Of a stretch of 42,464 bases of DNA, positions 3,050-41,300 are shown in pieces. The notes beneath the pieces were generated by a model. The model worked only from the letters and a program-made list of their open reading frames with translations. It did not search any database and had not been told where the DNA came from. Source of the stretch: Candidatus Parcubacteria bacterium (GTDB lineage Bacteria > Patescibacteriota > Microgenomatia > Levybacterales > GWA1-39-11); contig QZIP01000022.1 of assembly GCA_003599595.1 (NCBI GenBank), positions 1-42,464 on the forward strand, read 5' to 3'. Within the stretch, counting starts at the first letter, position 1. Every line of letters starts with the position of its first letter. The position numbers and the translations under genes were made by a program.

Positions 3050-3360
3050 CACAATCCCCAGGTTCGAATTCGGTTTCCGGTATAAAATTTCTTGAAGCTA
3101 ACAAAAAACGTCTGAAAATTTAGGCTCGAACCCTTCGATAAGTATACACTGAGTAAAATCGAAGTGCTCAGGGCTATAGCTAGAAAATCTTGCTTTGAAG
3201 GGCAGAATTGGAGGTTTTTAAAAACCATGGAGACCGATGTTTTGTAGATTTTGATCTTCCTGAATTATGCTGTTCAAAGCGCCTTTCGAAGTTGTCAGTA
3301 TAACCAACATATGTCTTGTTATCTTTTAGGCTTTGAAGAATATAAACATAATACATTGTT

Positions 3361-3420
3361 GAGGAGCGGGCCGCCCTTTGGGCGAGCCTCTCAAATTTTG
3401 CAGACAAAATTTGAGCTCCT
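3361..3420. repeat. Tandem hairpins immediately upstream of a GIY-YIG ORF
   Basis: CTCAAATTTTG-CAGA-CAAAATTTGAG (11-bp perfect stem) next to GAGG..GCCC-TTT-GGGC..CCTC. Confidence 0.75.
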
Positions 3421-3560
3421 GACGCACTCTTACACAGACTGCCAGGATTCATCCAAGAATTTAACTCTACTTCTATTTTACCAGATTTTTTGTACGAATT
3501 GGAGCCTAATTTAACCTTGAAGTTTCCTTCTTCCTCAAAATAAGCCCTAGTTACTGTTTT
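3411..3560 (-). repeat. Dispersed repeat, copy A
   Basis: Reverse complement closely matches 41160-41300 (e.g. AAATTAGGCTCCAATTC, TTAAATTCTTGG.TGAATCCTGGCAGTCTGTGTAAG-like blocks). Confidence 0.85.
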
Positions 3561-3622
3561 TAATCCTTGTTCAGTAACGGATTTTTTATGTACAATAAAG
3601 TGTAATAACAATTGTTAACTCT

Positions 3623-5076: not shown

Positions 5077-5136
5077 AATATTTGATCTATTTTGTATCAG
5101 TTAATGTAAATTAGTGTTTATTTCTGTCGCTTTTTG

Positions 5137-5207
5137 AGCGGGATACCAGAATCGAACTGGCTTCTCCACCTTGGAAGGGTGGCATACTACCGGTGTACTA
5201 ATCCCGC
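5137..5207 (-). tRNA. tRNA-Gly (TCC)
   Basis: GCGGGATTAGTACACCGGTAGTATGCCACCCTTCCAAGGTGGAGAAGCCAGTTCGATTCTGGTATCCCGCT; paired acceptor, anticodon stem CCACC/GGTGG, anticodon TCC. Confidence 0.93.
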
Positions 5208-5241
5208 ATAACTCTATCCCAGGCGGGGAAGAGAGCTATTC

Positions 5242-5297
5242 TCCGTCAAAAACAAGTATTTTGGCGGACCCGCTTAAATGCATTAGCTTTTAGCGGG
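5242..5297 (-). repeat. Two tandem hairpins downstream of a GIY-YIG ORF
   Basis: TCCGTCAAAA..ATTTTGGCGGA (5242-5268) and CCCGCTTAAATGCATTAGCTTTTAGCGGG (5269-5297). Confidence 0.75.
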
Positions 5298-5317
5298 TAC
5301 CACTAAACTACCACCGC
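5298..5317 (-). repeat. Partial tRNA-Gly(GCC)-like 5' fragment
   Basis: Minus strand GCGGTGGTAGTTTAGTGGTA matches 18/20 of nucleotides 1-20 of the tRNA at 39611. Confidence 0.75.
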
Positions 5318-5583
5318 ATGTCTTTCAAGTAATTTTCTAATCTTCTTTTTAAATATCCTCTACCAAAGCCTGTTTTTAATTGTAATTCTCTTTTCAAAGC
5401 ATCTGTTTTATTTAAACATGCCTCGTAGTAAATTAAAGATAGTCTATCAAATTTTTTTGTTGTTTTGACCTCTTTATTTATATGATCCTTATATCTATTT
5501 TTTAAATCTTCACATGAACCGATATAAAATTCATGCTTTATGCCTTCTGACTGACAAAGTAAAACATAAACATAATAAAACAT
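5308..5583 (-). CDS. Small GIY-YIG family protein
   Basis: MFYYVYVLLCQ..HEFYIGSCEDLKNRYKDHIN..LIYYEACLNKTDALKREL; stop codon lies inside the partial tRNA fragment. Confidence 0.85.
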   Translation of the reverse strand: MFYYVYVLLCQSEGIKHEFYIGSCEDLKNRYKDHINKEVKTTKKFDRLSLIYYEACLNKTDALKRELQLKTGFGRGYLKRRLENYLKDMRW

Positions 5584-5600
5584 AATCCATTCTTCACCTT

Positions 5601-5664
5601 GCCCAACAAAAGGACTTTTAGTCCATTTTGACGGGCCCGCCTAAATGTCATAGCTTTTGGCGGG
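5601..5664 (-). repeat. Two tandem hairpins upstream of a GIY-YIG ORF
   Basis: GCCCAACAAAAGGAC..GTCCATTTTGACGGGC and CCCGCCTAAATGTCATAGCTTTTGGCGGG; the second closely matches the hairpin at 5269-5297. Confidence 0.75.
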
Positions 5665-5701
5665 GAAGGGTGGCATACTACCGGTGTACTAATCCCGCAT
5701 A
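5664..5701 (-). repeat. Duplicated 5' half of tRNA-Gly(TCC), ending at the anticodon
   Basis: 38-bp exact direct repeat of 5173-5210 (GGAAGGGTGGCATACTACCGGTGTACTAATCCCGCATA). Confidence 0.95.
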
Positions 5702-9282: not shown

Positions 9283-9411
9283 CTTGCCAAAGTGTGCCTG
9301 GGGCGGGACTTCCTTCGACTATGCTCAGGATAAACTTCTCGTCCCTTACCCACTTCTGCAAACTCAGTACATTTTACACTGAGCTTGCCAAAGTGTGCCT
9401 GGGGCGGGACT
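9283..9411. repeat. 28-bp direct repeats of the tRNA-Leu 3' end flanking a 73-bp CTCAG-type insert
   Basis: CTTGCCAAAGTGTGCCTGGGGCGGGACT at 9283-9310 and 9384-9411; insert contains TTCGACTATGCTCAGG and CTCAGT..ACTGAG. Confidence 0.93.
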
Positions 9412-9476
9412 CGAACCCGCATGACTTGCGCCACACGCTCTTAAGGCGTGCGTGTATACCATTCCACCACCCAGGC
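9396..9476 (-). tRNA. tRNA-Leu (TAA)
   Basis: GCCTGGGTGGTGGAATGGTATACACGCACGCCTTAAGAGCGTGTGGCGCAAGTCATGCGGGTTCGAGTCCCGCCCCAGGCA; loop CTTAAGA. Confidence 0.93.
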
Positions 9477-9503
9477 ATTATTAATCTTCTGTAACCTTCT
9501 CTG

Positions 9504-9770
9504 TTATATATAATCTATACTCTCCAATATTAATTTTAACTGTTGCCTTAATAGTCTTTTACCTTCAGTAGTCTTTAAAAATTTTTCTCTTCTTAAAGCA
9601 TCTCCCTTTTCAATATAAGCTTCATAATGAATTAATTCAACTGGTCTAAATCTCATCGTACTCTTACACTTTCCATCCTTATGCTGTTTAATTCTAGATC
9701 TTAAATTTCCACTACTACCTGTATATAGCTTATTATTTATTAGTTTTAATATGTAAACATAGTAAAACAT
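9504..9770 (-). CDS. Small GIY-YIG family protein
   Basis: MFYYVYILKLINNKLYTGSSGNLRSRIKQHKDGKCKSTMRFRPVELIHYEAYIEKGDALRREKFLK. Residues upstream of this Met in the ORF track come from hairpins and a tRNA fragment. Confidence 0.88.
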   Translation of the reverse strand: MFYYVYILKLINNKLYTGSSGNLRSRIKQHKDGKCKSTMRFRPVELIHYEAYIEKGDALRREKFLKTTEGKRLLRQQLKLILESIDYI

Positions 9771-9780
9771 ACGTGGATAC

Positions 9781-9817
9781 CCTGTCATCCGACAGGGCCA
9801 TATCGAATGATATGGCC
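9781..9817 (-). repeat. Two tandem hairpins upstream of a GIY-YIG ORF
   Basis: CCTGTC-ATCC-GACAGG (9781-9796) and GGCCATATC-GAAT-GATATGGCC (9796-9817). Confidence 0.85.
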
Positions 9818-9834
9818 ATTCCACCACCCAGGCA
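9816..9834 (-). repeat. Partial 5' end of tRNA-Leu(TAA)
   Basis: 19-bp exact copy of 9459-9477 (tRNA nucleotides 1-18 plus one flanking base). Confidence 0.9.
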
Positions 9835-39080: not shown

Positions 39081-39237
39081 CTAACATTCTCTTACTTCAG
39101 CTTCTGCTAAAGCAGCACGCCTGAAGAGCGCTTCGTTAGTGCAAGCACTATCGATTAAATTGCGAATGTTAGCCGTATTGAAATGCTCTTTGTTGAAGCA
39201 AAATGAAACAAAGTAAATGAATAATACGGCAGAACAA
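39081..39237 (+). repeat. Nested/tandem hairpins between tRNA-Phe and a GIY-YIG ORF
   Basis: CTAACATTC..GAATGTTAG enclosing CTTCAG..CTGAAG and TAGTGC-AA-GCACTA; then CCGTATT..AATACGG enclosing CTTTGTT..AACAAAG. Confidence 0.75.
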
Positions 39238-39525
39238 ATGTTTTACGTTTATATATTGTTGAGCAAAAGAAATAACAAGTTTTATATTGGATTTACAAAA
39301 GATTTAAAGAGAAGGAGAAAAGAACACTCAAATGGACTAGTTGAATCAACTAAAAATAGAAGACCATTACTATTAATATATTATGAGGCGTATTTGAAAA
39401 CAGAAGATGCTCAAGCAAGAGAAAAATTTTTCAAAACAACCAAAGGCAAAATGCAATTAAGAAAACAATTAAATAATTCCCTTTCGGAAAACACACCAGA
39501 TTTGTTTTGTCCCAAACTATGTTAA
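39238..39525 (+). CDS. Small GIY-YIG family protein
   Basis: MFYVYILLSKRNNKFYIGFTKDLKRRRKEHSNGLVESTKNRRPLLLIYYEAYLKTEDAQAREKFFKTTKGK; may start at 39217. Confidence 0.88.
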   Translation: MFYVYILLSKRNNKFYIGFTKDLKRRRKEHSNGLVESTKNRRPLLLIYYEAYLKTEDAQAREKFFKTTKGKMQLRKQLNNSLSENTPDLFCPKLC

Positions 39526-39545
39526 CGGTGGTAGTTCAAGGGTAG
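39526..39545 (+). repeat. Partial 5' end of tRNA-Gly(GCC)
   Basis: CGGTGGTAGTTCAAGGGTAG versus CGGTGGTAGTTCAGGGGTAG in the tRNA at 39611; abuts the GIY-YIG stop codon. Confidence 0.88.
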
Positions 39546-39568
39546 CCGCCAAAATACTTGTTTTTGGC
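39546..39568 (+). repeat. Hairpin shared with 5242-5268
   Basis: CCGCCAAAATACTTGTTTTTGGC; minus strand of 5242-5268 reads TCCGCCAAAATACTTGTTTTTGACGGA. Confidence 0.85.
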
Positions 39569-39583
39569 AAAGAACGCAAAACA

Positions 39584-39610
39584 ATATATTATGCTTATAT
39601 TCTAAAAAAC
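39584..39610 (+). pseudogene. Relic of a GIY-YIG start fused to tRNA-Gly(GCC)
   Basis: ATA TAT TAT GCT TAT ATT CTA AAA AAC = (I)YYAYILKN, matching MYYVYIL-type starts; ends at the base before tRNA G1. Confidence 0.65.
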
Positions 39611-39685
<75 letters not shown>

Positions 39686-40633: not shown

Positions 40634-41098
40634 TTACCTCTTGGTTAAAAACTCCTGTTTAAGCTTTAAAATATCAAAATATTTATCACAACTTCCAATT
40701 AATTCTTTGGCTACATGAAATCTGGTAGAAAAAACTAACACTCTTTTACCCCTTTCATTTAATCTTCTAATTAAGTAATCAAAATTAGCTTTGTGAACTT
40801 CTTGGCTGTTTTTGTGATCCCATATTACCTTTAAGGGTTTTGTAACAATAGTGTATTGTTTGGCTTTTAAAGCTTTTAAGAATTCCTGATGAACTTTAGA
40901 AGAAAACGCCACTGTATAAAATCCTAAATAAACCAGATTACAGTCTTTTTGAAAGAATCGTCTTAATTTTCGGTAATTCACCTTAAAACCAGCTCCTTCA
41001 ACTGATTTGGAAAGGTTAGCAGCATCAATCAAAACTGCCGCTTTACCAGTTACAAATTTCTCAAGCATAAAATTATTATAAACAAATTTAGTTAACAT
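40634..41098 (-). CDS. NYN/LabA-like domain protein
   Basis: KAAVLIDAANLSKSVEGAGFKVNYRKLRRFF..LVYLGFYTV..RVLVFSTRFHVAKEL. Confidence 0.7.
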   Translation of the reverse strand: MLTKFVYNNFMLEKFVTGKAAVLIDAANLSKSVEGAGFKVNYRKLRRFFQKDCNLVYLGFYTVAFSSKVHQEFLKALKAKQYTIVTKPLKVIWDHKNSQEVHKANFDYLIRRLNERGKRVLVFSTRFHVAKELIGSCDKYFDILKLKQEFLTKR

Positions 41099-41159
41099 TA
41101 GCTATTGCACTTTATTGTACATAAAAAACCGCAACAACAAAGGGTTAGAAGGGAAGAAA

Positions 41160-41300
41160 TGTAGCTTATATTGAAGAAGGAGGAAACTTTAAGGTAAAAT
41201 TAGGCTCCAATTCATACAGAAAATCTGGTAAAAATGGGGGTGGAGTTAAATTCTTGGAAGAATCCTGGCAGTCTGTGTAAGATCTCGTCAGGAGCTCCAG
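41160..41300 (+). repeat. Dispersed repeat, copy B (inverted relative to copy A)
   Basis: Closely matches the reverse complement of 3411-3560; reading frame shifted by an extra base after GGTAAAA. Confidence 0.85.

Follow-up and report, generated by a model that had tools for sequence, protein, structure and literature searches.

Small GIY-YIG genes in the window lie among interrupted tRNA gene copies

The window, that is, the whole 42,464-nucleotide stretch of DNA analysed here, carries three complete small GIY-YIG open reading frames (ORFs), named G1, G2, and G3. G1 lies in the tRNA-Gly(TCC) region (5136-5698), where all features are on the minus strand. Reading that strand from 5698 to 5591, nt 1-35 of a broken tRNA-Gly(TCC) copy (5664-5698, identical to 5173-5207) were followed by the hairpin HPa (5636-5664), placed 3′ of the anticodon of this copy, by the hairpin HPb (5601-5636), and by a resumption of the tRNA-Gly sequence at about nt 36-45 (AAGGTGaAGA, 5591-5600). 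Next came G1 itself (5308-5583), which encodes 91 aa and matched Pfam PF01541 with an E value of 2.4e-11. The same order recurred from 5317 to 5227, where nt 1-20 of a second tRNA-Gly (5298-5317) were interrupted within the D-loop by HPa′ (5269-5297), then HPb′ (5242-5268), then an apparent resumption at about nt 21-35 (GAATAGCTCTCTTCC, 5227-5241; recognized by inspection with no separate score), and finally the complete tRNA-Gly(TCC) (5136-5207). HPa and HPa′ differ by a compensatory T-A to C-G change that keeps the stem, and the sole match to the strict HPb pattern in the genome was the HPb′ copy at 5242/5243. The segment 5227-5317 is an ORF-less relic unit, situated between the ORF and the intact tRNA-Gly, in which a 5′ piece of tRNA-Gly leads into hairpins and the tRNA then continues.

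The tRNA-Leu(TAA) region (9294-9833, minus strand) has a similar layout. The 5′ piece of tRNA-Leu(TAA), nt 1-18 (9816-9833), was interrupted in its D-loop by two tandem hairpins (9798-9815 and 9780-9797, together 9780-9815) and resumed with nt 19-26 (TATCCACG, 9772-9779). G3 (9504-9770; PF01541), a complete tRNA-Leu(TAA) (9395-9476), and a tRNA-Leu 3′ piece, nt 66-82 (9294-9310), then followed. For G3 we took the ATG start; the listed GTG start falls inside the tRNA-Leu piece. In the tRNA-Gly(GCC) region (39217-39685, plus strand), G2 (39217-39525; PF01541, E value 7.6e-16) is flanked by tRNA-Phe and tRNA-Gly and was followed by a tRNA-Gly(GCC) 5′ piece (39526-39544), a copy of HPb in its D-loop (39545-39568), a short tRNA-Gly resumption (AGAACG, 39571-39576), an N-terminal remnant of a lost GIY-YIG ORF (YAYILKN, 39590-39610, frame assigned by inspection), and a complete tRNA-Gly(GCC) (39611-39685). 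The segment 39526-39610 is a second ORF-less unit, between G2 and the intact tRNA-Gly, that has retained a GIY-YIG N-terminal remnant. Elsewhere in the window, an inverted repeat of approximately 210 nt (3413-3620 and 41090-41297, with pieces 76-90% alike) adjoins a truncated GIY-YIG ORF (3180-3611) and an NYN-domain gene.

A sequence-only reading of this DNA had proposed that the hairpin pair at 5242-5297 recurs in related form at 5601-5664, that one of its hairpins recurs 34 kb away, and that tandem or nested hairpins precede each complete GIY-YIG ORF. All three observations were reproduced: the related pair stands in the same order, the distant HPb-type hairpin lies at 39545-39568, and paired or nested hairpins were found upstream of 5308-5583 (minus), 9504-9770 (minus), and 39217-39525 (plus). 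Its broader statement that the hairpins accompany GIY-YIG ORFs was correct in general, but those at 5242-5297 and 39545-39568 belong to the ORF-less units and are not upstream of complete ORFs. That reading overlooked the main feature, namely, that the hairpins interrupt broken tRNA gene copies.

The linked proteins are minimal GIY-YIG domains

The small GIY-YIG proteins have 80-105 aa and a single GIY-YIG domain. The motif residues, comprising the GIY and YIG tyrosines, the glycine, and the Arg, His, and Glu (Y, Y, G, R, H, E), were invariant among 29 relatives, and the predicted model showed a GIY-YIG fold with a pLDDT of 88. Sequence and model together thus place the predicted products of the window ORFs in the GIY-YIG nuclease superfamily. 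Their nearest solved sequences and folds were UPF0213 proteins (1zg2, 1ywl) and SLX1; the likeness is one of sequence and fold, and the descriptions of these hits recorded no association with tRNA or hairpins. Patescibacteria often have small GIY-YIG ORFs of this kind, most of them annotated under vague names.

Small GIY-YIG genes are generally associated with tRNA genes

The source genome, a member of the Patescibacteria with Levybacteria-type relatives, has 45 tRNAs. Of its 14 small GIY-YIG loci, 10 were tRNA-adjacent (binomial P about 5e-13). We assembled ORFs from relatives of the same order and from 80 loci of named genomes, mostly Patescibacteria; the set comprised 206 unique ORFs and drew on about 100 genomes. 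Such ORFs occurred in 38 of the 41 relatives. A tRNA was present within 400 nt of 139 of the 206 ORFs, and the ORF and the tRNA had identical orientation in all 139 cases. Eighteen tRNA isotypes were represented. Where the tRNA was downstream, the ORF stop codon often fell within tRNA nt 8-15, and commonly within the first 15 nt.

When other RNA genes were considered, 97 of 125 ORFs in the source genome and its relatives lay at a tRNA, tmRNA, or rRNA gene (87 at tRNAs called by ARAGORN, 3 at tRNAs that ARAGORN missed, 4 at tmRNA, and 3 at rRNA). The same was true of 47 of 54 ORFs from other named Patescibacteria; beyond the Patescibacteria the figure was 3 of 16. No RNA gene was detected near the other 28 of the 125 and 13 of the 16. 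A tmRNA gene was directly upstream of the ORF at nine loci (L140, L027, L025, L095, L133, L152, L149, L208, and L091), on the strand of the ORF in the listed coordinates. At two loci (L053 and L127) the ORF began about 25 nt past the 3′ end of 16S rRNA, and ORFs were found within 16S and 23S rRNA genes at L112 (ORF about 1975-2241) and L170 (ORF about 2010-2264). A longer GIY-YIG protein of 279 aa, encoded about 540 nt from tRNA-Gly in G000 (C1:59565-59804; L014, L224), is possibly a conventional homing endonuclease.

tRNA genes are broken, split, and replaced beside the ORFs

Partial tRNA copies near the ORFs numbered 57, compared with 0-1 when shuffled tRNA sequences were used, and 54 of the 57 shared the ORF orientation. 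Both 5′ and 3′ pieces occurred, and one piece type consisted of a 3′ piece alone; most ORFs located downstream of a tRNA had no tRNA pieces. In 19 of 30 5′ pieces the tRNA sequence picked up again past the hairpin (2.2 expected). Breaks in these pieces were located in the D-arm or the anticodon loop, and in L051, L081, L105, and L123 the hairpin replaced the anticodon arm. Overall, disrupted tRNAs carried their hairpin modules in the D-arm, in the anticodon arm, or at the 3′ end. In L081, L088, L105, and L123 the hairpin-in-tRNA block was duplicated, with one copy on each side of the unit. The complete tRNA beside the ORF was of the same isotype as the disrupted one.

Only a minority of loci retained both halves of the old tRNA. 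When loci were screened strictly for a complete tRNA bracketed by complementary acceptor halves, eight were returned, compared with 0-1 in shuffles. At L089/L230, for example, a native tRNA-Val (GGACTCT...AGAGTCC) was split around a different, complete tRNA-Val (GGACCCG...CGGGTCC). Such split halves around a complete tRNA match the layout of free-standing homing endonucleases with target restoration, in which the ORF sits in a conserved gene and sequence carried by the element would restore that gene's function. The congener G029 has the orthologous tRNA-Val gene intact; in G016 the gene is split and the ORF is present, and in G017 the gene is replaced. In G017 the 5′ piece and the substitute tRNA-Val remained and the ORF was lost, and the same pair was found in a rearranged setting in G042. 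This tRNA-Val locus (filled in G017, intact in G029) was the only one at which occupied and empty states could be compared across relatives; no clean orthologous pair was found in the genera of G037 and G033 or at the tRNA-Asn locus. In G041 and G042, ARAGORN reads the tRNA-Asn copies that are split near nt 34/35 as intron-containing, and these copies were excluded from the analysis. Intron-bearing tRNAs were also seen among the loci, with an intron called by ARAGORN in tRNA-Asn of G041 (L249, L252), a group I intron in L071, and intron-like sequence ahead of the 3′ tRNA half in L004.

In the source genome, tRNA-Asp and tRNA-Gln both had the two old halves around a complete tRNA as ORF-less relics, and the halves of the tRNA-Gln relic differed from the substitute tRNA. 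Past replacements may be under-counted, because GIY-YIG-free loci of tRNA-Asp, tRNA-Leu, and tRNA-Gln in the source genome (L210, L219, and L227, respectively) keep pieces of older tRNAs. As the origin of the tRNA pieces, simple target-site duplication could account for the type with a 3′ piece only; it does not explain loci whose halves are mutually complementary and distinct from the complete tRNA. Assembly error was rejected, because the same arrangement was found in dozens of independent assemblies.

Hairpin type follows the nuclease

Hairpins were enriched upstream of the ORFs, at 0.88 per 110 nt compared with 0.12-0.17 in dinucleotide shuffles (204 unique ORFs), and tight hairpins reached 7.1/kb in the first 100 nt upstream versus about 0.7/kb in the far flanks. 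Two main types, with 7-bp stems, were distinguished by the triloop apex, GCTNAGC or GTNNNAC. The five outer stem pairs covaried; beyond the apex, pairing was at chance from the sixth pair on. Mapped on the nuclease tree, apex type changed only 3 times over 54 tips (shuffles, at least 17), and the isotype of the adjacent tRNA changed 70 times over 133 tips (shuffles, at least 94). Apex type is thus stable and tRNA isotype labile on the protein tree, so hairpin and nuclease stay together and the host tRNA changes. This tracking is what would be expected if the nuclease recognized the hairpins. The link between hairpins and nuclease that the sequence-only reading had drawn was therefore borne out by upstream enrichment, covarying stems, and apex type tracking protein phylogeny.

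The same reading had held that hairpins spread evenly through the genome without association to GIY-YIG ORFs would refute the link, and the two hairpins scanned in 41 genomes behaved differently. The GGTCGCCTNAGGCGACA hairpin had 11 copies genome-wide, and 10 of these adjoined both a GIY-YIG ORF and a tRNA, so that this type passes the check set by that reading; the lone off-site copy (L265; G005 C1:2798) lay in a sequence that resembled a T-box leader by eye. For the CCGMGTCAAACKCGG hairpin such spread was partly seen: it occurred at 52 sites in 18 of the 41 genomes, and among 30 sampled sites 5 were near a GIY-YIG ORF and 4 more had only a tRNA nearby; the remaining 21 had neither, and many of them were inside protein genes. 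No site with the CCGMGTCAAACKCGG stem and another loop was found in the 41-genome scan. The CCGMGTCAAACKCGG sites (L276-L305) are a 15-mer present in up to 9 copies per genome, many in protein genes and apparently in frame, and this dispersed repeat is reminiscent of Rickettsia palindromic elements. The association of hairpins with ORFs is thus strong, not exclusive, because one hairpin type is also dispersed away from ORFs. An Rfam search of the window returned tRNAs only, and the hairpins matched no known RNA family.

Discussion

We consider it reasonably probable, with some reserve, that a minimal selfish homing-like element, made up of the GIY-YIG ORF with its hairpins plus one complete tRNA gene, lives in tRNA genes, and more rarely beside tmRNA or at rRNA genes. 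In favour of this are the association with tRNA genes and the uniform orientation, the tRNA pieces, the split tRNAs with substitutes, the intact tRNA-Val orthologue, and hairpin stems that covary and an apex that co-evolves with the protein. Such an element would enter at a tRNA-gene loop or 3′ end, oriented as its host gene, and would therefore probably be transcribed from the tRNA promoter; the tRNA gene could serve at once as landing site, promoter, and disguise. The nuclease would cut the tRNA gene, and the element would spread by being copied during repair. The old tRNA would be left split or truncated, and the same-isotype complete tRNA beside the ORF, presumably immune to cutting, would take over, a course that may be called "home and rescue". 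The short apex-specific hairpins would most likely be bound by the nuclease, as DNA ends or as extruded or single-stranded sites. Subsequent decay of the ORF and the old tRNA halves would leave only scraps of hairpin and tRNA beside a substitute tRNA, as may be the case at 5227-5317 and 39526-39610. Several points count against this scheme: few loci keep both old halves, most ORFs downstream of a tRNA have no pieces, 28 of the 125 ORFs in the source genome and its relatives and 13 of the 16 outside Patescibacteria have no RNA gene detected nearby, one hairpin type is dispersed away from ORFs, and the intact tRNA adjoining the ORF should be a target too. Moreover, at tRNA-Val the ORF lies outside the split, so substitute tRNA and ORF may sometimes move separately.

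Ssn proteins of Neisseria are GIY-YIG site-specific single-strand nucleases, and the sequence-only reading had pointed to them. An immobile system of this kind, in which sequence-specific single-strand nucleases police or shape DNA uptake via dispersed hairpin repeats and tRNA genes are merely tolerant, well-transcribed sites where gene and hairpins accumulate, is unlikely in our judgement. The dispersal of CCGMGTCAAACKCGG, its frequent occurrence in protein genes, and the absence of its stem with another loop agree with such a system, as does the co-evolution of hairpin apex and protein. It leaves unexplained the split tRNAs with substitutes, the uniform orientation of ORF and tRNA, and the ORF ends inside tRNAs, and the GGTCGCCTNAGGCGACA type keeps to GIY-YIG ORFs.

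Less likely still is that the hairpins act as RNA, either as 5′ leaders through which the nuclease mRNA is autoregulated or in the processing of a shared tRNA-ORF transcript, with the tRNA pieces as recombination by-products. Hairpins directly 5′ of start codons and the shared transcript orientation would fit such roles, and stem covariation is expected from selection on RNA as well; this reading does not account for the hairpin-in-tRNA blocks on both sides of the unit in four loci, nor for hairpins that persist without ORFs. It is very improbable that another agent split the tRNAs, whether an integrase, a different element, or simple recombination among tRNA genes, and that the GIY-YIG gene is a passenger at a tRNA hot spot: integrases often target tRNA genes and leave fragments (PMC9897764), some split tRNAs now have no GIY-YIG ORF, and at tRNA-Val the ORF is outside the split, but the units are integrase-free and only a few hundred bases long, their ORF and hairpin order is the same at 18 isotypes, and hairpin type tracks the nuclease.

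Several known identities were rejected. A self-splicing group I intron holding a GIY-YIG endonuclease does not apply, as Rfam found no intron in the window and the tRNAs that serve as substitutes are complete. Near some loci, group I introns do occur. An integrase-type tRNA island was dismissed because the units hold a GIY-YIG ORF only, with no tyrosine integrase, and both 5′ and 3′ pieces are present. RAYT and IS200/IS605 transposases are of the HUH type, and a relationship to IS200/IS605 or REP-associated transposases, raised as an inference by the sequence-only reading, had to be abandoned, since the linked ORFs are GIY-YIG only and include no HUH (Y1) protein.

The proposed homing-like element nevertheless shares features with known systems. 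Like the Ssn family, it has a small single-domain GIY-YIG protein tied to specific repeats; in the Ssn system some repeats are dispersed, whereas here one hairpin type is dispersed and another is confined to the ORFs. The Ssn system is not known to split or replace tRNA genes. Like REP/REPIN sequences with RAYT and like IS200/IS605, it has short, often paired hairpins tied to a nearby nuclease gene, and ORF-less copies; unlike them, it has a GIY-YIG protein in place of an HUH-type transposase, and tRNA gene targets. T4 SegB is likewise an intron-less endonuclease gene adjoining tRNA genes, and differs in being a phage gene; it is not known to have hairpins in tRNA copies or a substitute tRNA. 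SegB is described as a homing endonuclease of the free-standing kind from the tRNA region of phage T4 (PMC13096335).

In fungal mitochondrial mORFs (Glomus atp6, atp9, cox2, and nad3; Allomyces atp6), an endonuclease ORF, of GIY-YIG type in atp9, enters an essential gene, and foreign sequence that comes with it replaces the displaced gene end (PMC3630166). The entry into an essential gene and the replacement are alike; mORFs replace the C termini of mitochondrial proteins, whereas the elements here would replace whole tRNA genes of bacterial chromosomes and have apex-specific hairpins. In tRNA-dependent lysogeny, some phages disrupt a tRNA gene on integration and carry a complementing tRNA (PMC10865867); a phage and a tyrosine integrase act there, whereas here a unit of a few hundred bases has a GIY-YIG nuclease and no integrase. 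Integrating elements also leave tRNA fragments (PMC9897764). None of mORFs, tRNA-carrying phages, and integrating elements unites the replacement of tRNA genes with a GIY-YIG nuclease and hairpins of specific apex, and in the literature searched we found no earlier description of this arrangement.

On a wider view, which we hold only tentatively and regard as possible, short of probable, hairpin-bounded GIY-YIG elements may form a new class, distributed across Patescibacteria and beyond, that splits tRNA, tmRNA, and rRNA genes, forces their replacement by element-borne copies, and is a chief cause of the turnover of tRNA genes in such small genomes. If the homing-like reading is right, the small GIY-YIG ORFs would be natural "home-and-rescue" elements that follow the logic of engineered gene drives, and their targets would be the cell's most conserved genes. 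They would supply numerous nuclease-hairpin pairs, differing in specificity, on which single-strand or structure-specific cutting could be tested, and would warn annotators of false tRNA pieces. They would also account for broken tRNA copies and for tRNA genes with foreign sequence where genomes are reduced.
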